The translations under genes were made by a program, and so were the position numbers. From a virus: a DNA stretch of 39,290 nt. The stretch's first letter is position 1. The number at the start of each line of letters is the position of its first letter. The notes under the pieces were generated by a model, which was not told the origin of the DNA, did not search any database, and saw only the letters and a list, made by a program, of their open reading frames with translations. Below, one piece after another: positions 5,003-36,600 of the stretch. The stretch is from positions 1-39,290 of IMG/VR virus record IMGVR_UViG_3300028581_000097. One strand, given 5' to 3'.

Positions 5003-5238
5003 GGCAAAGGTACAGCCAGCAAAATATCTATGTAAAGCCCGGACGGACAATGCATTTTTATTTTTAGCTGACATTGCCCGACCGCCCGTTGGGTTTTTTC
5101 AGATATTTCTTAACGCTGCGCTAAAATATCTGACCTAAAGGCTTGACTTAGAATTTTTCTTAGCTGTGGTTTCTGGCCATAAATTTTTTAACTCACCGGC
5201 GCGCCAGATGCCACAATAAGCCTCCGTGGGCAGGAGCA
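5003..5238 (+). ncRNA. Structured RNA element, copy 1
   Basis: First of four full copies of one RNA family. It starts GGCAAAGGTACAGCC and ends GCAGGAGCA, seven bases before the ATG at 5245. It keeps the helix ACAGC/GCTGT, the helix AAGCC/GGCTT, the first hairpin around a T-rich loop ending TTTTTAGCTGA, the CCCGTTGGG mini-hairpin, and a long second hairpin. In that hairpin TTTT/TAAA replaces the TGGC/GCCA of the other copies, a compensatory change. Its terminal hairpin is CTCC/GGAG in place of CCGC/GCGG, again keeping the pairing. Two mismatches occur in the first hairpin. Confidence 0.85.
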
Positions 5239-5244
5239 ATAATT

Positions 5245-5388
5245 ATGAAAAAATTTAAAGGTCTTTATGATGCTTTTGTTGAATTTCTTGATGGTCTTTA
5301 TTTTGAAGGCTACGCTGAACGGCTTAAAGACGAGGATCCTGAATTGTTTTATTTTGAATGGGAACAATATCAGGGGCTTTTTTCTTAA
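5245..5388 (+). CDS. Small acidic protein behind RNA copy 1
   Basis: A 47-residue protein, rich in Phe, Tyr, Asp and Glu (for example LYFEGYAERLKDEDPELFYF). It starts seven bases after the terminal hairpin of RNA copy 1 and is followed within 7 bp by a strong terminator, so it is a closed single-gene unit. No family is recognised. The strong codon logic (MKKF start, TAA stop) and the same placement as the other cassette genes support a real gene. It could be a small inhibitor or DNA-mimic protein, but that is only suggested by its acidity. Confidence 0.65.
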   Translation: MKKFKGLYDAFVEFLDGLYFEGYAERLKDEDPELFYFEWEQYQGLFS

Positions 5389-5394
5389 GATTTC

Positions 5395-5428
5395 GAGCCA
5401 CGTCGGGGGACGTGGCTCATTTTTTTTA
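5395..5428 (+). terminator. Intrinsic terminator closing cassette 1
   Basis: A perfect 10-bp stem (GAGCCACGTC / GACGTGGCTC) with a GGGG loop is followed by A and eight Ts. It lies 6 bp after the stop of the 47-residue gene. Confidence 0.9.
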
Positions 5429-5448
5429 TTCGTACGGCATATTTTTTA

Positions 5449-5484
5449 AAAATCCCGTGAACATCGGGTTCCCGGGATTTTTTT
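5449..5484 (+). terminator. Second terminator-like hairpin before RNA copy 2
   Basis: The hairpin AATCCCG-T-GAAC / GTTC-C-CGGGATT is followed by a T-tract. A near-identical hairpin (ATCCCGTGAAC / GTTCACGGGAT) lies at the same place before RNA copy 3, so it appears to belong to the repeated unit. It would insulate each cassette from the previous one. Confidence 0.7.
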
Positions 5485-5516
5485 AGGAGCCACCCGCACT
5501 ATTACTTAAATTTTAT

Positions 5517-5747
5517 GACAAAGGTACAGCCAGTAAAATATCGTAAGTAAAGCCCGATTGGACAATGTTTTTGATTTTTTAGCTGACATTGTCCATTCGC
5601 CCGTTGGGTGGCTTCAGAAATATTTTAACGCTGTGCTAAAATTTCTGACCGCCAGGCTTGACTTAGAATTTTTCTTAGCTGTGATTGGACGTCATAAATT
5701 TAATTAACCGGCGAGCCAGATGCCAAAATTAGTCCCAGGGCAGGGCA
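5517..5747 (+). ncRNA. Structured RNA element, copy 2
   Basis: The same architecture as the other copies, starting GACAAAGGTACAGCC and ending CAGGGCA, seven bases before the ATG at 5755. The first hairpin is GATTGGACAATG / CATTGTCCATTC, different in sequence from copies 3 and 5 but still paired apart from one site. The terminal hairpin shortens to CCC/GGG around the invariant AGGGCA loop. The segment TCTGGCC of the other copies is replaced here, so the predicted TCTGGC/GCCAGA helix is not supported in this copy. The box ACTTAAATT lies 12 bp upstream. Confidence 0.87.
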
Positions 5748-5754
5748 AACACAC

Positions 5755-5958
5755 ATGACAAAATCAGAATATCAGGATTACATCAGTGACATCATGGAAA
5801 TGTCGAACAACGGAGCTGACCTTGCTGCAAAGCATTTGGAAATTGTAGAGATTGTAAGAGTTAAACTGGATGATTGCTCACACAGAGAACATCACACGTT
5901 GAAAGACATCCGTGAAGCTCTTAATTCAGGCTTTTACGATAAAGCTTATTTTGAATAA
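5755..5958 (+). CDS. Small unknown protein behind RNA copy 2
   Basis: A 67-residue, acidic, mostly helical protein (HLEIVEIVRVKLDDC in the middle, two His-rich positions after it). No family is recognised. Its ATG lies seven bases after the terminal hairpin of RNA copy 2. A terminator starts within 3 bp of the stop, so it forms a single-gene unit. It shares no sequence with the other cassette proteins, which makes the RNA and not the protein the common factor. Confidence 0.7.
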   Translation: MTKSEYQDYISDIMEMSNNGADLAAKHLEIVEIVRVKLDDCSHREHHTLKDIREALNSGFYDKAYFE

Positions 5959-5960
5959 TA

Positions 5961-5985
5961 AAAAAGGGGCGAAAGCCCTTTTTTT
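5961..5985 (+). terminator. Intrinsic terminator closing cassette 2
   Basis: An eight-pair stem AAAGGGGC / GCCCTTTT with a GAAA tetraloop runs into a T-tract directly after the stop at 5958. Confidence 0.85.
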
Positions 5986-6009
5986 ATGGTCGTAACTGAC
6001 AAGGTAAAA

Positions 6010-6046
6010 ATCCCGTGAACATTGAGTTCACGGGATGTTTTTTTTG
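6010..6046 (+). terminator. Terminator-like hairpin before RNA copy 3
   Basis: A perfect 11-bp stem (ATCCCGTGAAC / GTTCACGGGAT, loop ATTGA) is followed by G and eight Ts. It is the counterpart of the hairpin at 5449-5484. Confidence 0.85.
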
Positions 6047-6083
6047 TGGCTCGCGTACTAACTCTACTGTTACTTAAATTTTC

Positions 6084-6307
6084 GGCAAAGGTACAGCCAG
6101 CCAAATATCTAAGTAAAGCCCGACCGGACAATGTTTTTAATTTTTTAGCTGACATTGTCCGGTCGCCCGTTGGGTGGCTTCAGAAATTTTTGAGGAAATT
6201 TCTGACCGCCAGGCTTGACTTAGAATTTGTCTTAGCTGTGGTTTCTGGCCATAAAATTTAACTAACCGGCGAGCCAGAGGCCAAAAATAGTCCGCAGGGC
6301 AGCGGCA
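6084..6307 (+). ncRNA. Structured RNA element, copy 3 (best-formed copy)
   Basis: Helices read by eye: ACAGC 6093-6097 with GCTGT 6235-6239; AAGCC 6116-6120 with GGCTT 6212-6216; hairpin 1 at 6121-6133 with 6153-6165 (13 perfect pairs); mini-hairpin CCC-GTT-GGG at 6166-6174; TGGC 6175-6178 with GCCA 6208-6211, continuing into 6180-6189 with 6196-6205; TCTGGC 6244-6249 with GCCAGA 6273-6278; terminal hairpin CCGC 6292-6295 with GCGG 6302-6305 around AGGGCA. The ATG of the SymE-like gene begins seven bases after GGCA. It resembles no riboswitch I know. Structured RNAs that end at an ORF start are known as HEARO/omega RNAs of IscB, but no IscB follows. Confidence 0.88.
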
Positions 6308-6314
6308 TCATTCT

Positions 6315-6515
6315 ATGTTAAAATCGCGCTCACTGAAAACTCAGTGTTATGTTATTCCCGGGAAACGAGGAAAACGGACTAAGTTTTTTCCTCAATTAAC
6401 CCTCAGGGGCCGCTGGCTCGAAGAGGCCGGTTTCCCACCTGATTACTTTGTTGAAGTTCATGTTCAGGATGGCAGACTGATCATTGAACCTGTTGGTGTT
6501 CCCTGTACCGCATGA
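6315..6515 (+). CDS. SymE-like protein (type I toxin family) behind RNA copy 3
   Basis: A 66-residue protein whose core reads LTLRGRWLEEAGF, followed by VEVHVQDGRLIIEP. This is the SymE signature (LxLxGxWLxxAGF then VxVxxxxGxLxIxP) of the AbrB-fold superfamily. SymE of enterobacteria is an SOS-induced RNA- or DNA-acting toxin controlled by the antisense RNA SymR. The N-terminal 20 residues are basic. Here the gene lies seven bases after a structured RNA leader and overlaps the next gene by ATGA. Whether it is toxic in this setting is unknown: many phage SymE-like proteins have no tested role. Confidence 0.85.
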   Translation: MLKSRSLKTQCYVIPGKRGKRTKFFPQLTLRGRWLEEAGFPPDYFVEVHVQDGRLIIEPVGVPCTA

Positions 6516-6706
6516 ACCGGCCTCCCTATCAAGGGGAACCCAGGCTGACAAAAACCCGCTATCCGATAATCTGCCACTGTGGTGCGCGGGTAAAGGCCGG
6601 AGATTTCATAATCCATTTTCCGATTTCACAAAATGCCAAGTGCTATAAGTGCGGCAAATGGGATTATGAATCGGTTTTCCGGAAAAAACTTTCACTTCCT
6701 ACTTAA
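6512..6706 (+). CDS. Small zinc-ribbon protein coupled to the SymE-like gene
   Basis: A 64-residue protein with two Cys pairs, CHC near residue 22 and CYKC near residue 47. These would form a zinc ribbon around the segment GARVKAGDFIIHF. It overlaps the SymE-like gene by 4 bp (ATGA), so the two are one transcriptional and translational unit, and it may be the partner of the SymE-like protein. No family name is assigned. The stop codon TAA lies inside a TACTTAATTTT box that resembles the box before the other RNA copies. Confidence 0.75.
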   Translation: MNRPPYQGEPRLTKTRYPIICHCGARVKAGDFIIHFPISQNAKCYKCGKWDYESVFRKKLSLPT

Positions 6707-6756
6707 TTTTTAAACCGGCGTGCCAGATGCCAACATAAGTCCGCAGGGCAGCGGCA
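6706..6756 (+). ncRNA. Structured RNA element, copy 4, reduced to its 3' end
   Basis: Only the 3' domain is present: ACCGGCG-TGCCAGATGCCA, then GTCCGC-AGGGCA-GCGGCA with the terminal hairpin intact, followed after seven bases by an ATG at 6764. It is fused directly to a TACTTAATTTT box like the one normally found upstream of the full element. This looks like an internal deletion of about 180 nt. The frame from 6764 gives only 13 residues and runs into a terminator, so no cargo gene remains. Confidence 0.75.
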
Positions 6757-6777
6757 TTTTATTATGTTTCAAGAATC

Positions 6778-6802
6778 AGGGGCCTCCGGGCCTCTTTTTT
6801 TA
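6778..6802 (+). terminator. Intrinsic terminator after RNA copy 4
   Basis: Seven paired bases (AGGGGCC / GGCCTCT, one G-T) with a TCCG loop run into a T-tract. It closes the cassette of the deleted RNA copy and the SymE-like operon before it. Confidence 0.8.
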
Positions 6803-6804
6803 TA

Positions 6805-6909
6805 ATTAGTTATAAAGCTAATATTTAACATCGTTTAACAAAATAAAGCTTGCATATATTAGTTTTATGACTAATTTTACAATGTATTTAAAACGAATAA
6901 TTAACTAAT
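6805..6909 (+). promoter_or_regulatory. Promoter with repeated ATTAGT/ACTAAT operator-like sites
   Basis: A Bacteroidota-type promoter is suggested by TTG at 6850-6852, a 19-bp spacer and TAATTTTA at 6872-6879 (consensus TAnnTTTG). The inverted repeat ATTAGT-tttatg-ACTAAT (6858-6875) lies across it. A second inverted repeat, ATTAG(T)...CTAAT, lies at 6805-6822, and a half site ACTAAT at 6904-6909. Such a set of sites is typical for repressor control. The HTH-ended protein encoded at 7264 is the nearest candidate regulator. No RNA copy precedes this gene pair, unlike its neighbours. Confidence 0.5.
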
Positions 6910-6923
6910 AAAAATTACGAATT

Positions 6924-7226
6924 ATGAAAACTTTAATCGAAACAACAACAGGCACAATTTCAAGTCAAATGATTTTAGACCACTGCGGCGACTATGCAGG
7001 TAAATTTCAAGACACTGCTTTTGACTTACTTTCAACAGTATGTAAATTACCAGAATTTGAAGACAATCAGTGGTGCGACATCATGTTTGACCATGATGGA
7101 GATGTTTATGCGATCTGGGCTGAAGATGCTTTGACTTGCTCAAATGCAGATGCAAAATATATTCAGCTTGATCGCGAAGATTGCGAGGCAGCGTTTGACG
7201 GTATGAAAGAAAAAATGGAAAACTAA
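6924..7226 (+). CDS. Small acidic protein of unknown function
   Basis: A 100-residue strongly acidic protein (about a quarter Asp plus Glu, few basic residues), with four scattered Cys. The segment DIMFDHDGDVYAIWAEDAL is its most regular part. It is not recognised. It follows the operator-bearing promoter and is separated by 37 bp from an HTH-ended protein. Acidic small phage proteins can be DNA mimics or anti-defence proteins, but nothing here proves such a role. Confidence 0.75.
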   Translation: MKTLIETTTGTISSQMILDHCGDYAGKFQDTAFDLLSTVCKLPEFEDNQWCDIMFDHDGDVYAIWAEDALTCSNADAKYIQLDREDCEAAFDGMKEKMEN

Positions 7227-7263
7227 ATTTAACTGCTGCGCTATCGGCAATACGGGCAATTTT

Positions 7264-7755
7264 ATGAAAGACGAAGCAATAAACATTTTAGATCAAATCT
7301 CAAACCTCATAACTTCATATCAGTATTATGAGGAAGCAGAAGAGCAGGCAGGGGAAAGTATCCAGGAAGATGTTCATGAGTATTACAGAATACTGAATTT
7401 TGCTTATGATTTACTAACCAGGACAGCATTAATCAGTTCGATAAAGGTGAAAACACCTGAAGAGATGAAAGAACCTGGCTTTGAGGAAGAATATATTCAA
7501 AGTTATGGTATTGCAGCCGATGAGTTTGCTGATTTTTCGTTTGCTCTTGCAACCCAAAAGGGCGAAATTTCGCTTCGCAGATTGCTGCGAACGATGATTA
7601 ACCGCGCCGGTTTTGGTGATAACCCAATTACAATGAAAGATGTTTGCACGCAAACTCATCAGGGTTATCCGAATATGAGCAGGTACCTTTCCGGAAAACA
7701 GTCGCTATCGAGCGATAATTATGAGAAAGCTTTGAATTTTGTTTTAAAAAAATAG
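7264..7755 (+). CDS. Putative regulator with C-terminal HTH-like segment
   Basis: A 163-residue protein. The first 110 residues are acidic and helical. The last 45 resemble an XRE-type helix-turn-helix: ITMKDVCTQTH, then NMSRYLSGKQSLSSDNYEKAL. Proteins that pair an acidic N-terminal domain with a C-terminal HTH of this kind are often antitoxin-like or autoregulatory. It shares an operon with the acidic gene before it, whose promoter carries inverted repeats, so autoregulation is a reasonable inference. A strong terminator follows. Confidence 0.7.
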   Translation: MKDEAINILDQISNLITSYQYYEEAEEQAGESIQEDVHEYYRILNFAYDLLTRTALISSIKVKTPEEMKEPGFEEEYIQSYGIAADEFADFSFALATQKGEISLRRLLRTMINRAGFGDNPITMKDVCTQTHQGYPNMSRYLSGKQSLSSDNYEKALNFVLKK

Positions 7756-7775
7756 CTTTTATCTATTTTTATTTA

Positions 7776-7808
7776 AAGCCTCTGAGTTACTCAGGGGCTT
7801 TTTTTTTA
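7776..7808 (+). terminator. Intrinsic terminator
   Basis: An 11-pair stem (AAGCCTCTGAG / CTCAGGGGCTT, one G-T) with a TTA loop is followed by nine Ts. It ends the acidic protein/HTH operon. Confidence 0.92.
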
Positions 7809-7846
7809 TCTCACCCGACACTGAGAGATGATCACTTAAATTGGCT

Positions 7847-8084
7847 GGCAAAGGTACAGCCAGTCAAATATCATAAGTAAAGCCCGGACGGCCAATGCCT
7901 TTTCAATTTTTTAGCTGAGCATTGGCCGTCCGCCCGTTGGGTGGCTTCACGCTTTAAGGCGTGACCGCCAGGCTTGACTTAGAATTTGCCTTAGCTGTGA
8001 TTTCTGGCCATCAATTTAAATGATTCATTTTTCAAAATTAAACTGGCGTGCCAGATGCTAAAAAAAGTCCGCAGGGCAGCGGCA
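7847..8084 (+). ncRNA. Structured RNA element, copy 5
   Basis: A full copy, from GGCAAAGGTACAGCC to GCGGCA, seven bases before the ATG at 8092. Hairpin 1 (GGACGGCCAATG / CATTGGCCGTCC) is perfectly paired with bases that differ from copy 3 (ACCGGACAATG / CATTGTCCGGT), which is direct covariation. Hairpin 2 is shorter but different in sequence and still paired (TCACGC / GCGTGA). The segment after TCTGGCC is about 15 nt longer than in copy 3. The ACTTAAATT box lies upstream. Confidence 0.87.
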
Positions 8085-8091
8085 AATAATT

Positions 8092-8505
8092 ATGACAACC
8101 GGATCAGCAAATGCAACTCCGAAAAATGGTTCAGCATCGAAAGCTGACAGTACTCAACCAAAAGTTGAGAACGTTCAAAATGCAACGGCTCCTGCCGAAG
8201 TGAAAATTCCTAAACCGGAAGCTCCGGTAATAAAGAATTTTACTTTGCATGAGATTGAGCAAAAGACCGAGTTCCTGAACACGCTTTTTACGAAAAGGAT
8301 GCGGCTTCACGAAGCTAAACTGAAGCTGGAAAAGTTCAGGATCGGATCGGACGATTCGCTTACGGTTCGTTTTTCGGACAATGACGGGAATTCATTTACC
8401 ACCGCAAACAAGGAGCCTATTGAGAAAATGCTCAGGATGGTGAAGGATGGAATTTCGGTTTCGCTGATGGAAGTTGAAGCACATATCAAATCGATATTTG
8501 AGTAA
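8092..8505 (+). CDS. Unknown protein behind RNA copy 5
   Basis: A 137-residue protein. The N-terminal 45 residues are low-complexity (Ala, Thr, Asn, Lys, Pro-rich) and probably disordered. The C-terminal 90 residues are a charged alpha/beta domain starting NFTLHEIEQKTEFLNTLF, with a long helix RMRLHEAKLKLEKF. No family is recognised. It starts seven bases after RNA copy 5 and is closed by a perfect terminator, so it is again a single-gene unit. It could be a DNA-binding or scaffold-like protein, but this is not shown. Confidence 0.75.
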   Translation: MTTGSANATPKNGSASKADSTQPKVENVQNATAPAEVKIPKPEAPVIKNFTLHEIEQKTEFLNTLFTKRMRLHEAKLKLEKFRIGSDDSLTVRFSDNDGNSFTTANKEPIEKMLRMVKDGISVSLMEVEAHIKSIFE

Positions 8506-8525
8506 GCTGCAACTTCGGATTAAAA

Positions 8526-8559
8526 AACCGGATCCGGTTTTCCGGATCCGGTTTTTTTT
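8526..8559 (+). terminator. Intrinsic terminator closing cassette 5
   Basis: A perfect 12-bp stem (AACCGGATCCGG / CCGGATCCGGTT) with a TTTT loop is followed by eight Ts. It ends the RNA-cassette region. Confidence 0.95.
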
Positions 8560-27578: not shown

Positions 27579-27656
27579 CTACTTCCCATAATCCTGGATC
27601 GTCTTTTTAAGATATTCCAACCTCGAAGCTACCACTTCGAGGTTTCTTTTTTCGAC
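27579..27656 (-). pseudogene. Duplicated 3' end of the neighbouring minus-strand gene
   Basis: Read on the minus strand, this gives VEKRNLEVVASRLEYLKKT followed by IQDYGK and a stop. It copies the end of the gene at 27764-28276, where the last residues are IEDWGK. A 53-bp block (27604-27656) is identical to 27789-27841. No start belongs to this fragment, and a stop precedes it a few codons upstream in the same frame. It is a leftover of a duplication. Confidence 0.75.
27619..27652 (+). terminator. Intrinsic terminator of the tail operon
   Basis: A perfect 10-bp stem (AACCTCGAAG / CTTCGAGGTT, loop CTACCA) is followed by TCTTTTTT on the + strand. It stops transcripts of the spike gene, although the bases are a copy of coding sequence of the convergent gene. 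Confidence 0.75.
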
Positions 27657-27664
27657 TTCGTTGC

Positions 27665-27760
27665 TTAGTACCCCTTAAAGGTCTTCACAAACTTATCGGA
27701 TGCTTTGCGTCGGAATTTATTGAGATACTGCTGCGTTTGATCGAGCGAGTAATGACGGTT
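27665..27760 (-). pseudogene. Small gene remnant on the minus strand
   Basis: Between the two duplicated blocks a short minus-strand frame encodes 31 residues, rich in aromatic and basic amino acids (RHYSLDQTQQYLNKF, then RRKASDKFVKTFKGY), and ends with TAA. A TAG stands immediately upstream and there is no start codon. The sequence looks protein-like, not random, and may be the end of a lost gene. The family is not known. Confidence 0.4.
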
Positions 27761-27763
27761 CTA

Positions 27764-28276
27764 CTACTTCCCCCAATCTTCAATTGTTTTTTTAAGATAT
27801 TCCAACCTCGAAGCTACCACTTCGAGGTTTCTTTTTTCGACGTAGTTGGATTTTGTGCGCTGTACGTCGATCATCTCCCGCAAAATACCTTCAAACATCG
27901 TAATAATGTTGCCCAAATGTTTAAAAACCATCCAATTTCCGTTTTCCCATCCAGACCTGTCGATGATTAGGGTAAAACTTTTATTGATAAACTGCAAATC
28001 TTCATCAAAACGCATGGCAATGATTTCTCGCTGCTCATTGTCGAAATAGAACCACATTTTTCGATACTCGGTAAAAACTTCGATGTAAATTTTGTTAAGC
28101 TCGAAGAGTTTTGTCTTTAGAAACTCATTTGTCTCAGCCAGAAATTTTGTTAAGTGCTTCCGGTTTGAAAATGTGTTGGTTGAGTTGTTACCGAGCACAA
28201 CACGAAAACTATGATCCCTGGTAAGAATCGAATTTTTATTCTTTTCATCAAATCTTTCAATTTTCGCAGCTTTCAT
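27764..28276 (-). CDS. Unknown helical protein on the minus strand
   Basis: A 170-residue, mostly helical and charged protein with long amphipathic helices (KHLTKFLAETNEFLKTKLFEL, LGNIITMFEGILREMIDVQ). It converges on the tail spike gene. The 3' end of its coding sequence contains a perfect hairpin that is an intrinsic terminator on the opposite strand. The same block is duplicated at 27604-27656. No family is recognised. Its place between the late region and the repressor suggests a lysogeny-expressed gene. Confidence 0.75.
   Translation of the reverse strand: MKAAKIERFDEKNKNSILTRDHSFRVVLGNNSTNTFSNRKHLTKFLAETNEFLKTKLFELNKIYIEVFTEYRKMWFYFDNEQREIIAMRFDEDLQFINKSFTLIIDRSGWENGNWMVFKHLGNIITMFEGILREMIDVQRTKSNYVEKRNLEVVASRLEYLKKTIEDWGK
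27804..27837 (+). terminator. Second copy of the tail-operon terminator, inside a coding sequence
   Basis: The same 10-bp stem and T-tract as at 27619-27652. It lies within the last codons of the minus-strand gene 27764-28276, so these bases serve as codons on one strand and a terminator hairpin on the other. Confidence 0.65.
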
Positions 28277-28630
28277 TTGAGGTAAAGTATTGATTGTTAG
28301 TTTCCTTGCTTTTTGTAAGTTATTGATTATTAGTATTGTTTTGGTATTGGAAATGTCCTATAATTAATACTATGAAATTCCTTTCAGTTTAATTATCAGG
28401 GCGTAACAAGCAGTAGGGCAGGGCATAACAGGACGTTTGCCTGGTAATAATTTTCAGTTACGATTTTTTAGGGTGTCTCTCATATCCCTTTTGCTTTTTT
28501 TTTTGCAAACCAATCATTTTAAAGAACTTAAAAAAGCGAAGTGGGGATGTGTGGGAGTAAGAACACTTACCGTCGCGGCACGCTGTGATTTGTGTATTTA
28601 GCTTCCTTGAATGGATCCCCATTCGCTATA
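28277..28630. other. Intergenic region between two minus-strand genes
   Basis: No gene is supported. The left part is AT-rich and likely holds the promoter of the minus-strand gene 27764-28276. The centre has a run of ten or more Ts near 28497 after ATATCCCTTTTGC. The right part, near 28571-28605, carries CGTCGCGGCACG and GTATTTAGCTTC, both of which recur near 30914-30936. Confidence 0.5.
28571..28605 (+). repeat. Repeat pair member: CGTCGCGGCACG plus GTATTTAGCTTC
   Basis: CGTCGCGGCACG (28571-28582) is repeated exactly at 30925-30936 in the same orientation. GTATTTAGCTTC (28594-28605) is the exact reverse complement of GAAGCTAAATAC at 30914-30925. The core is itself an imperfect palindrome. 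Two linked 12-base matches in one place are unlikely to be chance. Confidence 0.65.
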
Positions 28631-29026
28631 TTATTGTCTCATTCGTGGCGTTTTGTAATTTCCATTATGTGTTGCCATTATCAAATCGTCTTTATCAGAT
28701 GTGCTATTTTTTTCGTAACGATCAATTTCTTTTTCTAATCGTGATATCAGTTTTTCCTGACTTTTAATTTGTGCCCTTAATAATTCGACTTCTACCTTAG
28801 AATAAGCAGGCAATGGGTCTTCCACAATATTATTAAATTCTTCATTCCACCAATACGATGGTGAAACGCCTAAAGCCTTACTCATTTTTTCGAGATCAGA
28901 AACCCTGCAATCATTCCTTTCAAAAATCTGGTAAAATACCTGCTTATCTCTTCCAAGCATTTTTGCAAGCTTTGGAACGCTGATATTTTTTGACTCAGCA
29001 TATTTTTGTATCTTATTGATTACCAT
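28631..29026 (-). CDS. XRE-type repressor with coiled-coil tail
   Basis: A 131-residue protein. An N-terminal helix-turn-helix covers about residues 1-60 (ISVPKLAKMLGRDKQVFYQIF, then DLEKMSKALGVSPSYWW). It is followed by a coiled coil (EVELLRAQIKSQEKLISRLEKEI) that would make a dimer. It is transcribed away from the small HTH gene at 29168 across a 141-bp region with repeated AAATTATTT sites. This is the arrangement of a phage lysogeny switch, and it is the likely CI-like repressor. It lacks a LexA-type peptidase domain, so induction would be indirect. Confidence 0.85.
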   Translation of the reverse strand: MVINKIQKYAESKNISVPKLAKMLGRDKQVFYQIFERNDCRVSDLEKMSKALGVSPSYWWNEEFNNIVEDPLPAYSKVEVELLRAQIKSQEKLISRLEKEIDRYEKNSTSDKDDLIMATHNGNYKTPRMRQ

Positions 29027-29036
29027 TGTTTTTAAA

Positions 29037-29117
29037 ATTAAATAATTTAGAAATAAATTAAATTACAACTTTTTGAAATTATTTCTTGACTTTTATGAAA
29101 TTATTTAATTACGTTTG
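29037..29117 (+). promoter_or_regulatory. Rightward early promoter with operator-like repeats
   Basis: TTG at 29086-29088 (in TTGAC), a 21-bp spacer and TACGTTTG at 29110-29117 match the Bacteroidota promoter pattern TTG...TAnnTTTG. GAAATTATTT occurs at about 29075-29084 and 29097-29106. The reverse form AAATAATTT lies near 29039-29049, towards the repressor gene. The repeated sites within and next to the promoter are good operator candidates for the divergent HTH pair. Confidence 0.65.
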
Positions 29118-29167
29118 CAATTCAAATATAACATTCATTTATTGATTTAACAAATAATATTCCAAAC

Positions 29168-29395
29168 ATGTTAAAACAGGACATAATTAAAAAAATAAGG
29201 ACAAATACCCGCTTAAAGCTAGAAATTGCCCTGATGCTCGAACGCAGCATTCCTACAATTGAGCGGATGCTCAACAAAAACCACCTGATGCTTACCAGGT
29301 TTGACGTCCTCAAAAAACTGGCTGCCGAACTGAATATCGAAAACTTTGAAGACCTGTTGGAAAAATCAGAAGCTTACTTCTCAAAATCGGCGTAA
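29168..29395 (+). CDS. Small Cro-like HTH protein
   Basis: A 75-residue protein with an HTH-like centre (LKLEIALMLERSIPTIERMLN) and a second helix pair (DVLKKLAAELNIENFEDLLEK). It is the first gene of the rightward operon, divergent from the XRE repressor. Small size and location fit a Cro-type protein that turns down the repressor. It lies 3 bp before the next gene. Confidence 0.75.
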   Translation: MLKQDIIKKIRTNTRLKLEIALMLERSIPTIERMLNKNHLMLTRFDVLKKLAAELNIENFEDLLEKSEAYFSKSA

Positions 29396-29397
29396 TT

Positions 29398-29760
29398 ATG
29401 AAAATAGAATTCCTGAAGGACCGAAAAGGCGTGTTGAAGCCGGTAATTTATTTTAAATTCATCGGACAAACATTCGACACCATCGAAACATTAACTCCCG
29501 AGCAGTTTGAGGCCATTTTTGAACAGGTAAATAAACATCCCGAAGCTCACATGGCATTGATCAGCCTATCGAAACATTTTCCGGGTGATAAGCGTAAAAT
29601 CCTTTCTCAGTTTATCGAATGTAATTGGGCCGAACTGGACGATAAAGTTGACATATCTGAAGATAAGTTAAACTATGAGTTTGTTTCATGCCCTTTGCGC
29701 GCAACTGGAAACTGCCCATTTGGTGAGAATATTTGTATGATTAAATCCTGCCACCAATGA
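29398..29760 (+). CDS. Early protein with C-terminal Cys cluster
   Basis: A 120-residue protein. The C-terminal 25 residues hold four Cys, SCPLRATGNCPFGENICMIKSC, a likely zinc-binding knuckle. The N-terminal part has a short strand pair and a helical middle (TLTPEQFEAIFEQVNKHPEAH). It starts 3 bp after the Cro-like gene and overlaps the next gene by 4 bp. A transcription- or replication-linked DNA-binding role is plausible, but no family is named. Confidence 0.7.
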   Translation: MKIEFLKDRKGVLKPVIYFKFIGQTFDTIETLTPEQFEAIFEQVNKHPEAHMALISLSKHFPGDKRKILSQFIECNWAELDDKVDISEDKLNYEFVSCPLRATGNCPFGENICMIKSCHQ

Positions 29761-29993
29761 TCCAGCCCATCACACTCCAAAGCATCATAACTTTTCAGCA
29801 AAAAAAGCTGAAAAAGGCAAAGCGCACCGAAAACGAAACCGTGGTGTATGCCGAGAAAATGATCCTTGAAATCCTGAAAGAACATGAGGCAATGGTAAAA
29901 AATATTGATGGCAACGTGGTTGTAACCATGTCGCCGGAAAGATTTAAACTGATCGAAAACATCAGGCCAAAAATTGTAGAGAATTCACTTTAA
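29757..29993 (+). CDS. Small basic early protein
   Basis: A 78-residue Lys-rich protein, with a helix around ITFQQKKLKKAKRTENETVVYAEKM followed by a short beta part (NIDGNVVVTMSPERF). It overlaps the upstream gene by 4 bp. No family is recognised. Confidence 0.65.
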   Translation: MIQPITLQSIITFQQKKLKKAKRTENETVVYAEKMILEILKEHEAMVKNIDGNVVVTMSPERFKLIENIRPKIVENSL

Positions 29994-30005
29994 AAATTTA
30001 ATACT

Positions 30006-30692
30006 ATGAATAAGAAAGAATTACATGTTTTAAAAAATGAAATTAGCGACGTATCTTTTATGTTGCAAACGCTTAAAAATGAATTTAACTCAAACCTTGA
30101 GCTATCAAAATTAATTGGCATTAAAAATTATGAAATTACGAATCTCATAAAAAACGCAAAACATTTTAGCTCAGATCGGTTTATTGATAATTATGATAAG
30201 GTACTAAAAGCCTACAATGTTTTGAAACCAAAGGATATTGAAAACAAACCAATAACTCAGGATTTCACTTCAAATTCAATAGCTTTAGAAGCTAAAGTAG
30301 GTTCATTTTTAATAGAAATACATGATTTCCTTGGCATTAAAGAATTTAAGCATTTTAATTTACGGAAATTATCGGATAAATATCATATAGGATCTGGTAT
30401 TTGTCAAGTCGTTAGAAAACATGCTTTAGACCGAAAAGTACAAGGAATTTATAAATGGAAATCAAATGTTACTTTGAATAAAGAATTTGTTGATTTTATT
30501 TTGAATGAATACAGAAAATTTGACCCAGCCTATGCGCCAACATACAAAAAAAACATGACAGGTGTAATACCTGGAACAGTTCAAATTAATCCACTACAAT
30601 CAAACTACTCTGATAAAAAATATGGATTAATTAGAACGTTTATTTTTTACATCTTAAAAATATTCAAAACATTTATAAAATGGATTTTTTAA
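30006..30692 (+). CDS. AT-rich early gene with C-terminal membrane segment
   Basis: A 228-residue protein. The N-terminal part is helical and Asn/Lys-rich, and could hold an HTH-like fold (ELSKLIGIKNYEITNLIK). The C-terminus is hydrophobic and basic (LIRTFIFYILKIFKTFIKWIF), probably a membrane anchor. Its DNA is clearly more AT-rich than that of its neighbours, which suggests recent acquisition. It is followed by the structured, gene-free region at 30711-31014. Function unknown. Membrane-anchored early proteins often act in exclusion, but this is inference. Confidence 0.7.
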   Translation: MNKKELHVLKNEISDVSFMLQTLKNEFNSNLELSKLIGIKNYEITNLIKNAKHFSSDRFIDNYDKVLKAYNVLKPKDIENKPITQDFTSNSIALEAKVGSFLIEIHDFLGIKEFKHFNLRKLSDKYHIGSGICQVVRKHALDRKVQGIYKWKSNVTLNKEFVDFILNEYRKFDPAYAPTYKKNMTGVIPGTVQINPLQSNYSDKKYGLIRTFIFYILKIFKTFIKWIF

Positions 30693-30710
30693 AATATCAG
30701 GCCCACCGGG

Positions 30711-31014
30711 GTGACGTTGGATGATCACTCCGATTAGAACTCACTGATTTCTTAGTGAGTGATGGCCGTGTTCCCCGTTTTTGTAATCCACTTTTTTAGG
30801 GGCAAACCTGTCGGACTGGGGAAACGTAAATTCCTAAATATATCAGCTAAACACGGCAAAGAATGATGACAGGAAAAAACCTGTGACAGGAGGCAAAGAC
30901 CCCGAAATTGTATGAAGCTAAATACGTCGCGGCACGACTGTAACAGCTTCCAGTTCTTTCGAATACCAGTGTTGGAATCACGCTTCAGGGCGTGATCTCC
31001 AGCTTGGTTTTTTT
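30711..31014 (+). ncRNA. Candidate structured RNA leader or non-coding RNA
   Basis: About 300 bases without a gene but with many paired stretches: ACTCACT/AGTGAGT (30739-30760), GCCGTGTT 30765-30772 with AACACGGC 30850-30857 enclosing CCCC/GGGG pairs, ACAGG/CCTGT (30869-30884), GAAGCT 30914-30919 with AGCTTC 30945-30950, and ATCACGC/GCGTGAT (30977-30996) with an outer TGGA/TCCA. A T-tract at 31007-31014 follows the last stem, like an attenuator, and the ATG of the next gene is only 8 bp further. It is not related to the five-copy RNA family by eye. Confidence 0.6.
30914..30936 (+). repeat. Repeat pair member: GAAGCTAAATAC and CGTCGCGGCACG
   Basis: Partner of the site at 28571-28605. GAAGCTAAATAC is the exact reverse complement of bases 28594-28605. 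CGTCGCGGCACG is an exact direct copy of 28571-28582. Here the two words abut, sharing one C; at the other site an 11-base gap separates them. Confidence 0.65.
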
Positions 31015-31021
31015 TATCACA

Positions 31022-31234
31022 ATGAAAAAAATAAGGTACAAAACCGGACAAAGCAGCTACGCAAAAAGGATGATGCGACGAAACCTGATCATCGTTCACG
31101 CGCTGAAATTGATGGAAAAGGATTTGAGATGGAAATTAAAAAGCCTTCCGCGTGGTAGCGAGCTACGAAGCTACTTTAAAGATGAAATTTCGATAACTCA
31201 AAATATTTTAGAACAATACAAAAACCGAATTTAA
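31022..31234 (+). CDS. Small basic early protein
   Basis: A 70-residue, very basic protein (MKKIRYKTGQSSYAKRMMRR, then a helix NLIIVHALKLMEKDLRWKLK). Start 31022 is chosen over an in-frame start at 30992, which would lie inside the terminator-like stem. It could bind nucleic acid. The next gene starts 1 bp after it. Confidence 0.65.
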   Translation: MKKIRYKTGQSSYAKRMMRRNLIIVHALKLMEKDLRWKLKSLPRGSELRSYFKDEISITQNILEQYKNRI

Positions 31235-31235
31235 C

Positions 31236-31397
31236 ATGTACACAACAATTGGAATTATGTTTTTAGTAGGGATCATTATTTTGATCGGCTTCGCCTACAT
31301 GCTTGATAAGCTCACCGAGGCCAACGAACGCAACAAAAACATCTATCGCGATGCAGCCCGCGAACGGTGGCAAGCCGAAAAAAAAGAATCGCTATGA
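31236..31397 (+). CDS. Small single-membrane-span protein
   Basis: A 53-residue protein. One membrane helix near the N-terminus (IMFLVGIIILIGFAYML) is followed by a charged helix, EANERNKNIYRDAARERW. It overlaps the next gene by ATGA and lies 1 bp after the previous stop, so it is an integral part of the early operon. It may be a small membrane regulator. No family is known. Confidence 0.7.
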   Translation: MYTTIGIMFLVGIIILIGFAYMLDKLTEANERNKNIYRDAARERWQAEKKESL

Positions 31398-31840
31398 TTT
31401 TCCGGGTAGATAAATTTGAGAGTTGCCAGGTTACCGGAATCACAGATTTTGAACTGACCTGGAATGCCGGAAGAGGCGAATACAGCGAAAAGCTGTTCGA
31501 TATCCAAATCGCACAAGCTGTTGATTACATTTTTTCGATGGCACGCGACGCCATCCTGCTAAGGCTTGAACTTTTTTTGAAAAAGGTTATTCCAATAACC
31601 GACCGCGCCGATGATGCAGCCTTTTTGTGGGGGAAACTGGCCGAATTAAACGCTAAGGATTTTAAACCAATTTGCCAGAACATTAACTTTTTAAAAGACC
31701 GCATTTACGCACTGATCCCCGGTAAAAAAACCGACATCGAAACCGCGCTTCACCGCGATGCACAAGATATTATCGACTTCGCAAAAACCAACTGCGAAGC
31801 AAAATTTGAAAATTTTATTAATCATTTAATAGCAGCTTAA
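31394..31840 (+). CDS. Early protein of unknown function
   Basis: A 148-residue helical protein (AQAVDYIFSMARDAILLRLEL, then DAAFLWGKLAELNAKDFKPI). The ATG at 31394 overlaps the previous TGA; a GTG at 31367 would lie deep inside the upstream gene. No motif is recognised. Confidence 0.7.
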   Translation: MIFRVDKFESCQVTGITDFELTWNAGRGEYSEKLFDIQIAQAVDYIFSMARDAILLRLELFLKKVIPITDRADDAAFLWGKLAELNAKDFKPICQNINFLKDRIYALIPGKKTDIETALHRDAQDIIDFAKTNCEAKFENFINHLIAA

Positions 31841-31842
31841 TT

Positions 31843-32121
31843 ATGAAAACTGACAAGAAAAAAATTGAAAAGGAAAGATTGGACATTTATAATGCAATAA
31901 AGCATGAAATTCATAAACGAATTAAAGATGGAGAAGTAAACTCTTACTGTCGGTCATAGTGGGTTAATTCAAATAATGTAAATTATGGTTATGAAATGAT
32001 GAGTGCAAAGATTAATTATCGCATGAAAAAGTTGGTAGATGAAGGCTATTTAACTATCGAATCAAATATTTATGGGGTAAAATATAGGCTAACCAATAAA
32101 ATTTATGGAGGCCAGCAATGA
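31843..32121 (+). pseudogene. Winged-helix-like gene interrupted by an in-frame amber codon
   Basis: The frame starts with ATG at 31843 and encodes KKKIEKERLDIYNAIKHEI-like sequence. It meets TAG at 31957-31959 (after NSYCRS), then continues open for 54 codons (WVNSNNVNYGYEMM, then INYRMKKLVDEGYLTIESN) to TGA at 32119-32121. That TGA overlaps the ATG of the next gene. The second half reads like a winged helix. TAG ends other genes here (for example at 7755 and 12157), so a recoded genetic code is unlikely. Either a nonsense mutation or read-through would explain it. Confidence 0.6.
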
Positions 32122-32774
32122 AAACACATCCAATAATTTTCAGCACCAAAATGGTGCAGGCCATCCTCGAAGGCCGCAAAACGATGACGAGAAGGATTGT
32201 AAATACAACAATGCATGGTTGGGATGCACAGAAAATGCAGTTTACAATAGTTGAAAATCATAAATCTGAAACAATCGGTTGTCAGGCATATTTTAAAGAT
32301 AAAGAAAACCATTTCCATTTAGGAATAAAATGCCCTTACGGCCAACCAGGCGACGTGCTTTGGGTGAGGGAGACCCATCAGTTTAGATATAATGACATTT
32401 CTCAGCCAGCTTACAAAGCTGATTTTCCTGATAGCTTAAAAAATCAGTGCAATAGAGTTTCATGGAAACCCTCCATCCACATGCCAAAAGCCGCCTGCCG
32501 TATTTTTATACAAGTAACCAGCATCAGGGTTGAAAGGTTGCAGGATATTACTAAAAAGGATTCGATTGCTGAAGGCATTTTAAGTGATCACACTGATGGC
32601 GATTATTACTATTTCTACCCATGTAACGATCTTAGAGACGATACTTATTTGGATAACCCGATAACATCATTCTACTCACTTTGGAAATCAATCAATAGTG
32701 AAGAATCCTGGAACTCCAACCCCTGGGTATGGGTAATAGAATTTAAACGGATTGATAAACCTGAAAACTTTTAA
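32118..32774 (+). CDS. ASCH-domain protein
   Basis: A 218-residue protein with features of phage ASCH-domain proteins: MKTHPIIFSTKMVQAILEGRKTMTRRIV at the N-terminus, CPYGQPGDVLWVRETHQF in the middle (the GxxLWVRE motif), then CRIFIQVTSIRVERLQDIT and a C-terminal WVWVIEFKRI strand. ASCH domains have a PUA-like beta-barrel that binds RNA or modified nucleotides. The phage versions may act on tRNA, DNA or modified bases; the substrate is unknown. It overlaps the interrupted gene upstream by 4 bp. Confidence 0.85.
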   Translation: MKTHPIIFSTKMVQAILEGRKTMTRRIVNTTMHGWDAQKMQFTIVENHKSETIGCQAYFKDKENHFHLGIKCPYGQPGDVLWVRETHQFRYNDISQPAYKADFPDSLKNQCNRVSWKPSIHMPKAACRIFIQVTSIRVERLQDITKKDSIAEGILSDHTDGDYYYFYPCNDLRDDTYLDNPITSFYSLWKSINSEESWNSNPWVWVIEFKRIDKPENF

Positions 32775-32778
32775 AACT

Positions 32779-33099
32779 ATGCACAAACTTGAAAAATTGG
32801 GATTCGTAAAAAACACTAAAACCATCAATGGGTTTCGGCCTAATTACATTAAAGACAATAAACTGGTTTTTGTTTTCAATAAGTCGTATTGGTTGGGAAG
32901 AATAGTAAGTCTTGGATGGGCTTACAGAAATTCACCTTACACAATTATCGGAATTTTAACTGAAGATTCACCATCATTAGCAGCTTTTGATTGGGTTATT
33001 GGTCAAGGTTCAACACTGTTAACATTAAATCCTTTATCAAAAGTAGTCTATAATAAAGAGACTCAGCAACTCGACTATGTACCAATAACTGAAATTTAA
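32779..33099 (+). CDS. Small early protein of unknown function
   Basis: A 106-residue protein, beta-rich with aromatic residues (LVFVFNKSYWLGRIVSLGWAY). It starts 5 bp after the ASCH gene. The leader just before its ATG reads CCTGAAAACTTTTAAAACTATG, and a nearly identical leader precedes the next gene, which suggests a duplicated start region. No family is recognised. Confidence 0.65.
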   Translation: MHKLEKLGFVKNTKTINGFRPNYIKDNKLVFVFNKSYWLGRIVSLGWAYRNSPYTIIGILTEDSPSLAAFDWVIGQGSTLLTLNPLSKVVYNKETQQLDYVPITEI

Positions 33100-33119
33100 A
33101 CCTGAAAACTTTTAAAATT

Positions 33120-33341
33120 ATGATCATCGAAAAAATTGAAATCGCGGAGCTTCTTCCAAGCGATCTTAAACAAGGGCACCGAATAATAAATGTTGGCATT
33201 GTAAAAAGTGTGGAAGAATGGAAAAATTGCTTTAAAGTAGAAATTTATGGTAACGATCCATTTATTATTCAAAAACCATATATTTCAATAAAAGTTCTAT
33301 CCGAAAACGGAAGGCCAAAAATAGAAAAACCCATCCTCTAA
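33120..33341 (+). CDS. Small early protein of unknown function
   Basis: A 73-residue protein with an alternating strand pattern (KVEIYGNDPFIIQKPYISIKV). The leader CCTGAAAACTTTTAAAATTATG repeats that of the upstream gene. It lies 1 bp before a zinc-finger gene. No family is recognised. Confidence 0.65.
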   Translation: MIIEKIEIAELLPSDLKQGHRIINVGIVKSVEEWKNCFKVEIYGNDPFIIQKPYISIKVLSENGRPKIEKPIL

Positions 33342-33342
33342 T

Positions 33343-33591
33343 ATGACAGCCAGTAAAATCAAAATCCGCAAGCCACAGGTTGAAGAAACCAAACCAACAT
33401 GCCTGGCACCCGAAATGTTCTGCATGTTTTGCAACACAAAACTTCCACCGTTTCACGAAACGGTTGTTTGCAAAGCTCCAGCCTGCCGAACCAAACAGGC
33501 ACAACTCCAACAACTTCGCCGCGACCATCGCTGGAATGGCGAGATAGAACCTGGCTACATTTTCCAGTGTACCCAGGCATGTATTTTTTAA
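33343..33591 (+). CDS. Small zinc-finger protein
   Basis: An 82-residue protein. Cys pairs CMFC (near residue 27) and CKAPAC (near 43) would bind zinc; the helix TKQAQLQQLRRDHRW follows. A basic N-terminus (SKIKIRKPQ) supports nucleic-acid binding. It stands 30 bp before the primase-helicase gene and may assist replication, which is inference. Confidence 0.7.
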   Translation: MTASKIKIRKPQVEETKPTCLAPEMFCMFCNTKLPPFHETVVCKAPACRTKQAQLQQLRRDHRWNGEIEPGYIFQCTQACIF

Positions 33592-33621
33592 AATGATTTC
33601 CCAACCCAAATAATCTAAACT

Positions 33622-36600
33622 ATGATCAGCCCTGAAAAAAAACAGGAGGTTTTGCGTGTCGCCAGGATAGAGGATGTTGTAGCAAAATACTACGATCTTA
33701 AAAAGTCGGGGGCTTCGCTTTATACTACCTGCCCAAAATGCGGCAAATCGGGTAAAGGAAAAGGCTTAATCGTTACCAAATCGAAACAGGTTTACAAATG
33801 CTTCTCATGCGACTTTGCCGGAAACAACGCCATTAGTTTTGTGATGGAAACTCAGAACATCACCTTTCCGGAAGCTACAAAGCAGGTTGCGTCCTTGTAC
33901 AACATTGATGTTGATGAGCGCCCCGAACCCAAAGGACCGCAAAAGCGTGGCGGAAACCTGCCTGAGTCGTTCAGGAATATTCAGCTTAAGCAGTCGGGTT
34001 TGGATGAAAACGACCAGAAAGCTACCGTGTTTGTTGCCGACGATACCGAAAAGATTGTTGATACCATCGTTGCCGGTACGCGCAACCAGTATGGCGCCAT
34101 CGCCGATGGCGACGACATGATTATCTGGTATTACGACCTCGAGGGCCGGCCGGTTGAGTTTAAAACGCCAAAGCGCGACAAACTGGAGCACCTTTGGCGG
34201 ATCCGCTGGCAGAACCCCGACCTGCATTGCGATAAAAACGGCAATCCGATGAAGTACAGCAGCCCTTATGGCTCTGGTACCCATCTGTATATTCCGGAAA
34301 TCATGCGCAAAATGTACAAGGAAGGGCGCATCATCAAGCGGCTGTACATCCAGGAAGGCGAAAAGAAAGCAATAAAAGCCTGCAAACACGGGATGCCTTC
34401 GGTGGGCATTATGGGCATCCACGCGCTGGGAAGCCATGGCCAGTTACCTTACGACCTGCAGCTACTGGTGCAGCGCTGCCAGGTGGCCGAAGTGGTTTTT
34501 GTGTTGGATGCCGATTGGGACGAGCTTTCGCACTCCATCCAAACCGGATCGAAGGTTGATAGCCGCCCATGGTCGTTTTTTAATGCCGTTAAAAGCTTCC
34601 GGGAATATTTTAAAACCTTCGTTAACCTTGGGCATTATCTTGAGATTTATTTTTCACATATAAAAGCCAACGAGAATAAGGACAAAGGCATCGACGACCT
34701 GCTGACCAATTCACTTCCCGGAAAAGAGATTGAGCTTTTTGAAGATTTCGAGAAAAGCATCAACCTGAAGGACGGCGCCGGGAAGTACATTGATCTGCAT
34801 AAGATCACCACCACGAGCGATGGCAAACTGATGGAGCTTTGGTCGCTGCAGTCTGCCGAAGCTTTTGCCGAGCGTTACCGTGAGCAGCTTGAGGAAATTA
34901 AAGAATTCAAAATTGGCAAGCACCTGTGGCGCTTCGGAGAAAATAAAAAGCTGGAGCTTGCACAGCCTTTGCACGACGACGAAATATTCTGGAGTGTTGT
35001 TACTAACCAGGACAGGTCGGGGAATGACAGGCAAACCATTACTTTCGATTATGAGAATGCTTACAACTTCCTGCGCAATCGTGGTTTTGGCCGCATTATG
35101 ATGGCCAATGGTCAGTATTTCTTCTGCCATCTGGATGGGAAGGTTGTGGAGATTGTGGAGCCGTTCCAGGTAAAGGATTATGTGCTCGAAATCATGCAGG
35201 AGATCTGCCCCAAAGAGGTTCGCAACATGCTTTACCGGGGCGGCAGGATGTATCTTGGACCAGAAAGCCTTGGTTCGCTCCGGTACTTCGTCCCGGAGTT
35301 CATCAAAGCCAACCAGACCAGCCAGCGGCTGTTCTTTAAAAACAAATACTGGCAGATATCAGCAGGTGGCATCGAAGAGAAAGCCATCACTAACCTCGAT
35401 TACCATGTTTGGCGCGACAAAATCATTGATTTTGACGCTACCAAACTGAGCGAACCGATTGTAAAGATTGATAAACGCGACGGCAATTTTAGTATCAGGT
35501 TTTCGAAAGAAGGCGCCAACTGCCACTTTGCACGCTTCCTGTACAACTCATCAGAGTTTAACTGGCGCAAGTTTATTAATCCCGAAACCCGCGAAAAGAT
35601 TATGGACGAGCGCACCGCCGAAGAGCGCTTTGAAACGAACATGCACTTTGTGAGCAAAATGACGGCCATCGGGTACCTGCTGCATAAATTCCGGGATAAG
35701 AGTTGTGAGAAGGCTGTGATTGCCATGGATGGCAAGATAAGCGAAGTTGGCGAGAGCAACGGACGGACAGGTAAATCGCTCCTGGGCTTCGCCATCGGGC
35801 AGATGATCCCGCAGAGCTACATCCCGGGCAAGAGTAAAAACCTTACCGAAGATCCATTCATCTGGGAAGAAGTTACCGAGAAAACCGACAACGTATTCCT
35901 GGACGACGTGCGTACCAACATCGACTTTGAGTTCTTTTTCCCGATCATCACCGGGCGCATTACCATCAACGTTAAGGGTAAAAAGAAGTTTACCCTTACC
36001 GACGAACAAACACCCAAGCTATTCCTCACAACGAACCACGCAATAAACGGCGATACTTCATCATTTCGGGACCGGCAGGCTATTATTGTGTTTTCTGACT
36101 ATTACAACGAAACCCACAAGCCTGTCGACGATTTTGGCACCAACTTCTTTGTGGAGTGGGACAAGATACAGTGGAACCTGTTTTACAACTTCATGAGCGA
36201 TTGCCTGCAGCTATACTTTATGGCCCGCGACAATGGCTGGGGACAATCAGGATCCGGACTGGTGCTTCCACCCATCGAGCGCATCGAGATGCGCCGCATG
36301 CGCCAATTTATTGGCGAGGACTTCCTGAGCTGGGCAAACGAGTATTTTGGTATATCGGATTTCGATTCGCCTGAAGATTTAAAACAGGTTAACAGCCCGA
36401 ACCTGAACGTGCCCATCCCGCGCCAGGAGCTGTTTAATAACTTCCTTGATAAAAACCCATTCCACCGCAAGCACACCACGGCATATCGCTTTAAAAAGAA
36501 GATTACAACCTGGTGCAAGTTCCGTGGATTGCAGTTTAATCCCCTCAATTTCGACAACCAGAGCCGCCCCGGTGCCGACGACAAATCCGGCGGCGTTGAA

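Follow-up and report, generated by a model that had tools for sequence, protein, structure and literature searches.

A candidate structured RNA in a gene-free gap of a phage early operon is complementary to the likely 3' end of a repressor message

Introduction

What might a gene-free stretch that ends in a strong terminator be doing inside the early operon of a phage? The question is raised by a 39,290-base IMG/VR virus record (the window, analysed here at its full length), in which a gap separates an ORF ending at 30692 from the next one, ORF71, starting at 31022. An earlier note on this DNA had read the gap as a structured RNA, with an attenuator, an antitermination site, an anti-defence RNA or an origin region as its possible uses. 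The host is probably a Bacteroidales bacterium, since relatives of the window primase occur in several Bacteroidales MAGs. To our knowledge, the choice between lysis and lysogeny is little understood in Bacteroidales phages. Our analysis bears out part of what the note observed and lends support to part of its interpretation. Three points are absent from it: how the terminator ranks in the window, that the 5' end is a remnant of coding sequence, and that a repressor transcript is matched in antisense.

Results

Borders of the gap

A single relative with the RNA was found, the contig IMGVR_UViG_3300033519_000251, to which the loci cited below as L082, L083 and L103 all belong. The features at the gap are the following.

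30691-30737, plus strand: coding remnant; in the relative, the last codons and TAG stop of an ORF homologous to 29757-29993
30738-31015, plus strand: candidate structured RNA of about 280 nt, gene-free, 91% identical in L082, no Rfam match, fold z -2.69 (window) and -2.99 (relative)
30966-31015, plus strand: intrinsic terminator, with stem 30966-31007 and T8 31008-31015, dG -24.8
31022-31234, plus strand: ORF71, a basic protein with no assigned function, directly after the terminator; ATG at 31022

The gap is gene-free as had been claimed, in that 30738-31021 holds no plus-strand gene and no plus-strand ORF of at least 50 aa lies wholly inside it; a GTG-start ORF (30992-31234) that contains ORF71 overlaps its end. 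Its left border had to be moved. The segment 30691-30737, identical to L082 at 46 of 47 bases, matches the last codons and stop of the relative's ORF, so these first 47 bases are leftover codons and the non-coding part begins near 30738. A 5' stem, GGGGTGA/TCACTCC (from 30707), was rejected because it was once coding sequence and because a C to G change disrupts it in the relative; it was perhaps counted as the first stem in the earlier note. A minus-strand ORF of 115 aa (30752-31099) was likewise rejected as a conserved gene, its frame shifting in the relative through indels of 10, 1, 2 and 1 bases.

ORF71 is 99% identical to its counterpart (L082 4001-4213), in which one TGG-to-TAG change creates a stop; the other three differences look synonymous by eye. 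With the RNA it forms a mosaic block (30691-31230), whose match to the relative is better than that of the left-hand gene (82%). A 25-nt repeat (72%) between the RNA and ORF71 is probably due to chance. Between the two parts of the former ORF, the window alone carries an ORF of 228 aa (30006-30692) that had no relatives in the viral scan and is flanked by 13-base direct repeats, AAAAYATCAGGCC (29956-29968 and 30691-30703), resembling a target duplication. The early operon of the relative has an insert of its own, an ORF with a KilA-N domain (L082 2922-3485), which has no equivalent at that place in the window.

Termination and the early promoter

The terminator-like last stem and its T-tract were found as the earlier note described them, except that the T-tract ends 6 rather than 8 bases before the ATG. 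This stem is the strongest intrinsic-terminator candidate in the window, and the relative keeps it at dG -24.9 (L103 12296). Elsewhere in the window, nine plus-strand terminator candidates lie among the small ORFs of 5094-8552, together with extremely stable folds (z -8 at 6101-6260) and a hairpin beginning AAATCCCGTGAACAT that recurs at 5478 and 6038. The elements to the left of the operon are two.

29085-29117, plus strand: early promoter candidate, with CTTG, a 21-nt spacer and TACGTTTG (Bacteroidetes type TTTG / TAnnTTTG)
28631-29026, minus strand: C1/Cro-type HTH repressor candidate (PHROG transcription regulators, E 2.6e-5)

Judged by the Bacteroidetes consensus TTTG / TAnnTTTG, as given in the available part of PMC7366714, the promoter candidate is the only exact match on the plus strand of 28901-33700. 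It lies 1.6 kb upstream of the RNA and has a near-match at the corresponding place in the relative (L082 2299). Within the same interval and strand, no promoter of this type was found at the RNA itself. Because no promoter is nearer than 29085-29117, the RNA is probably part of the rightward early transcript, ending at its own terminator. In B. thetaiotaomicron, intra-operonic sRNAs end at terminators, according to the same part of PMC7366714. A TAnnTTTG also occurs on the minus strand at 29130, opposite the promoter candidate, and 29085-29130 with the HTH repressor to its left looks like a divergent switch. The repressor candidate additionally matched Pfam HTH_26 at E 0.0014, below the curated cut-off.

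Fold of the RNA

The predicted helices discussed below, all on the plus strand, are these.

30739-30760, plus strand: hairpin ACTCAC/GTGAGT, 6 of 6 pairs unchanged in the relative
30765-30857, plus strand: P1, 8-bp long-range pair (30765-30772/30850-30857) enclosing P2 and P3
30773-30776/30799-30802, plus strand: P2, inside P1
30819-30823/30832-30835, plus strand: P3, inside P1, holding the only compensatory change (A-U to U-A, columns 133/142)
30807-30890, plus strand: possible pseudoknot, CCTGTC (30807-30812) with GACAGG (30885-30890)
30914-30951, plus strand: P6 hairpin (30914-30919/30945-30950, inner 30926-30929/30935-30938, loop CGGCA)

The long-range pair that had been singled out, GCCGTGTT/AACACGGC, is present as P1 but does not exceed chance alone: the region has 2 inverted repeats of 8 bp or more, where 0.8 are expected (P 0.18), and 19 of 6 bp or more, where 11 are expected (P 0.015). 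The claimed stems are there, with a pairing strength only mildly above chance. As a whole the region folds with a z of -2.69, 1 of 100 shuffles being equally stable, and the relative's copy with a z of -2.99. When 490 windows were scanned, the 3' part (30901-31060) ranked 17th with a z of -3.96 and the middle (30741-30900) had a z of 0.04; several other windows were far more stable than the RNA region. The predicted pseudoknot would stack on the hairpin ACAGG/CCTGT (30869-30873/30880-30884), and its pairs are identical in both sequences, so that no covariation signal is possible.

Aligned over 279 columns, the two copies show 18 substitutions and 4 indel events. A model of 60 pairs (9 helices) was built from stems common to both sequences, so its 100% paired cells are expected and circular. 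Fair tests use window-only structures and randomly placed changes, and gave P 0.04 to 0.16 by measure. On window-only predicted structures, 3 to 7 of the 18 substitutions hit a paired base, where 6.7 to 10.7 would be expected (P 0.04 to 0.055); the corresponding tests for broken pairs and for energy gave P 0.04 to 0.16. The two-sequence consensus fold reached -73.8, against -64.9 with randomly placed changes (P 0.04). Covariation amounts to one compensatory pair change in a comparison of two sequences. These measures lend moderate support to selection on the fold, and the idea of a structured RNA in the early operon is moderately supported by the second phage, the conserved terminator, the fold-sparing substitutions and the compensatory change. 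A resemblance of some bases to 23S rRNA, noticed by eye, was dropped for want of an Rfam match.

Distribution of the RNA

Searches for homologues returned the one relative. Rfam 15 (4,227 models, with phage RNAs such as GOLLD and ROOL if curated there) gave no gathering-score match in the window; at E up to 5 there was none in 30650-31060 and three chance-level matches in the relative. Identity as a tRNA or tmRNA was rejected. Among 13 viral loci with related primases, the RNA occurs only in L082/L083, which are one contig, and 11 further distinct records are without it. None of 80 distant loci with the phrog_874 neighbour protein has it, and ORF71 had one relative in the viral scan. DNA pattern scans of viral records recovered the same relative and chance matches only, one pattern missing even this relative through a single-base difference. 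An exact 21-mer was not found in the genome scan, and a gapped motif was found in 0 of 393 Bacteroidales genomes. Covariance model R1 matched 33 of 393 Bacteroidales genomes at E up to 0.1, with about 39 expected. The lowest-E matches that were examined overlap long open frames and were rejected; three of the covariance matches (L117, L119 and L121) lie within a protein gene whose product, read from its translation, is outer-membrane lipoprotein carrier-like. With blastn, 395 Bacteroidia genomes gave short matches only, and phage and plasmid collections gave none at the default limit and chance-level ones at E up to 10.

Complementarity of P6 to the repressor message

When segments of the RNA were searched elsewhere in the window, a match was first seen as two 12-mers, 12 bases apart, at 28571-28605. 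They fall in the following element.

28535-28627, minus strand: structured 3' UTR and terminator of the repressor transcript, with the outer stem AGCGAA-TGGGGAT / ATCCCCACTTCGCT, then T6

This hairpin lies 4 bases after the repressor stop and is followed by T6 on the minus strand, so it is likely the 3' end of the repressor message. The 93-base hairpin is very well conserved (L083 1514-1604 in the relative), an island of identity between diverged flanks, and folds with a z of -4.33 on the plus and -3.31 on the minus strand.

In both phages, P6 and the repressor tail share CCGTCGCGGCACG (in the window RNA, ACGTCGCGGCACG), CTGT and AGCTTCC in the same plus-strand order. The blocks in P6 are CGTCGCGGCACG (30925-30936), CTGT (30938-30941) and AGCTTCC (30945-30951); those complementary to them in the minus-strand message are 28570-28582, 28583-28586 and 28600-28606. 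Complementarity between the repressor message and P6 thus extends over three collinear blocks of 12-13, 4 and 7 bp, or 23 to 24 antisense bases in all. The spacer between the blocks differs and the blocks themselves are constant. Position 30924 (A) of the window is a mismatch to the target G, and no compensatory changes between RNA and target were found in the two sequences. A search for the 11-base core, GTCGCGGCACG, in 15 phage and genome records found it in 2, precisely those that carry the RNA.

We compared P6 (30905-30960), a segment picked after the match was noticed, with all 3,924 sixty-base windows on both strands. The best duplex outside its own locus was with the repressor 3' end (minus strand 28551-28610), at -44.2 kcal/mol (z -5.0). 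Apart from its own locus, the P6 of the relative likewise paired best with the repressor 3' end of that phage (-44.8; 1,354 windows). On the repressor target, no shuffled P6 among 500 came up to the real values (the best were -35.0 and -37.9). The net gains on cofolding, -11.1 and -16.2, were matched by none of 200 shuffled targets. In both RNAs the CGGCA loop of P6 is free of pairing with a probability of at least 0.9. Its partner in the target, UGCCG, is entirely or for the most part unpaired in the window and less free in the repressor tail of the relative. The P6 hairpin has to open for the full duplex. The complementarity to a phage regulator message goes beyond chance and is kept in the relative, with the qualification that 1 of 40 P6 shuffles, each compared with the entire window, gave an equally good duplex somewhere (-44.4). 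In a scan with the full-length RNA in the window phage, the repressor site was not among the 12 best windows. What sets the match apart from chance is its place, its collinear blocks and its presence in both phages.

The integrase region of the relative

The relative has a third copy of the 12-base block, CCGTCGCGGCAC (L083 1296-1307), 20 nt upstream of the integrase ATG (1275). UGCCG in this leader is mostly unpaired, and the duplex with it (-31.9) is inside the shuffled range (best -34.5). No PF00589 integrase was found in the window, where the integrase seems to have been replaced by an ORF of 170 aa without family match; the window nevertheless retains both the RNA and the repressor-tail target. 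Two further observations concern this region. In the relative, L083 1385-1398 is tRNA-like by eye, a candidate attachment core adjoining the integrase gene and lying between copies of CCGTCGCGGCAC and TTTGTCGCTTTT. In the window, 27579-27848 holds an 85-base direct repeat (89%) and a short match to the C-terminal end of the relative's integrase gene.

Alternative explanations

We tentatively favour antisense pairing between the RNA and the repressor message, because it accounts for the strand, for the hairpin contexts and free loops, and for the position on the lytic side. Its main rival, which we regard as unlikely, holds that a phage protein binds the repeated blocks as double-stranded DNA, either as arm-type sites of an integrase or excisionase or as sites of a regulator, the RNA fold around P6 being secondary. 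The 12-base block of the relative does flank the tRNA-like candidate core (copies at 1296 and 1548), and the CTGT-AGCTTCC spacing is not the same in RNA and target, the difference of 9-10 bases being close to one helical turn. Yet the window, lacking a PF00589 integrase, retains the other two copies in extended form. The attachment region repeats only the 12 bases, whereas the RNA and the repressor tail share two more blocks, and the divergent promoters (29085-29130) have no copy. The setting of the target, a hairpin with T6 behind it on the strand of the repressor, is in keeping with a role as RNA.

Quite unlikely, in our judgement, is a cis-acting element for processive antitermination or gating, in which a modified polymerase or a recruited antiterminator would let the primase operon be read through the terminator only in the lytic state. 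The RNA lies 1.6 kb past the early promoter and ends in the strongest terminator, behind which the primase operon continues without a consensus promoter. Across 18 other primase-related loci, no comparable terminator was found within the scanned 3.3 kb before the primase (less where the locus was shorter), and 3 of the 18 have a terminator further upstream. Against this reading, the relatives manage without the element; moreover, we found no conserved antitermination motif and recognised no antiterminator protein among the neighbours.

That the block is a replication origin, or a plain accessory insert with no RNA function, appears improbable. The mosaic block is indeed closer to the relative than is the gene to its left, but the fold is better preserved than random, and the origin that the earlier note allowed for found no backing in iterons (short two-copy repeats only) or in a GC-skew turn in the region. 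A simple attenuator or riboswitch controlling ORF71 through terminator and antiterminator folds is very improbable: the terminator stands directly before ORF71 and a weak alternative helix exists (TTCCAGT/GTTGGAA), but two competing folds of similar stability were not found, nothing competes with the terminator (probability 0.998; forbidding it costs 13.4 and 15.6 kcal/mol), and in the relative TAG interrupts ORF71 but the RNA persists. For an anti-defence RNA we found no evidence.

Discussion

The observed position, terminator, conservation in two phages, complementarity and free loops lead us to propose, as a possibility held with some reserve, a regulatory RNA that acts by base pairing, is made from the early promoter and links the early operon to the repressor message. 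We infer from sequence that a discrete RNA of about 280 nt would be transcribed from the early promoter and end at its own strong intrinsic terminator. The free CGGCA loop of P6 would serve as a seed and pair in the cell with a repressor message made from the opposite strand 2.3 kb away, at the loop of its structured 3' end. Firing of the early promoter would in this way lower repressor expression and favour lytic growth. In the relative, the RNA could also mask the integrase leader, 20 nt ahead of the start codon. The opposite direction is also a possibility, with the tail of the repressor message binding the early RNA in the lysogen. A bolder version, which we consider rather doubtful, is mutual antisense: the early RNA and the repressor 3' end would inactivate each other by loop-loop contact, the integrase leader being a second target in integrase-bearing members, and the whole would form an RNA-to-RNA immunity switch of Bacteroidales phages.

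Antisense RNAs control immunity in other phages, the CI RNA of P4 being one. The c4 RNA of phages P1 and P7 and the sar RNA of P22 exert antisense control of this kind, and the OOP antisense RNA of lambda pairs with a lysogeny-regulator message and favours lytic growth (all as described in the available part of PMC12197685). The RNA described here shares with OOP the complementarity of a phage RNA to a lysogeny-regulator message and, as proposed, a pro-lytic effect. OOP is encoded opposite its target with full complementarity, whereas this RNA (30738-31015) lies 2.3 kb from its target (28535-28627) and matches it in three short blocks; at about 280 nt it is also more structured, and it would act on the repressor's own 3' end. 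The c4, sar and CI RNAs act on antirepressor or early leader messages, whereas the partner here would be the 3' end of a C1-type repressor message. IsrK of the Gifsy-1 prophage is a terminator-ended RNA in a phage operon whose promoter also gives read-through, and it pairs in trans (available part of PMC4825925). A terminator-ended RNA within a phage operon is the likeness, read here from the DNA letters; IsrK activates translation of its own read-through message, whereas the complementary site here is the tail of the repressor message. In phage HK022 the put RNAs, structured RNAs in an early-promoter transcript, have about 70 nt and two stem-loops (available part of PMC9378689). This RNA is likewise structured and within an early transcript, but with about 280 nt, 9 model helices and its own terminator it does not have the put format. 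By analogy, it may work like the cis antisense kind typified by OOP without being a member of it, and in architecture it recalls IsrK.

Our literature search, limited to full-text listings, revealed no account of an RNA of this kind in a Bacteroides phage. The reading proposed here shows why an early operon may contain a large gene-free gap with a strong terminator at its end. If it is true, the lysis-lysogeny decision of these phages would have an RNA layer, acting through a short loop-loop contact that is open to direct test.
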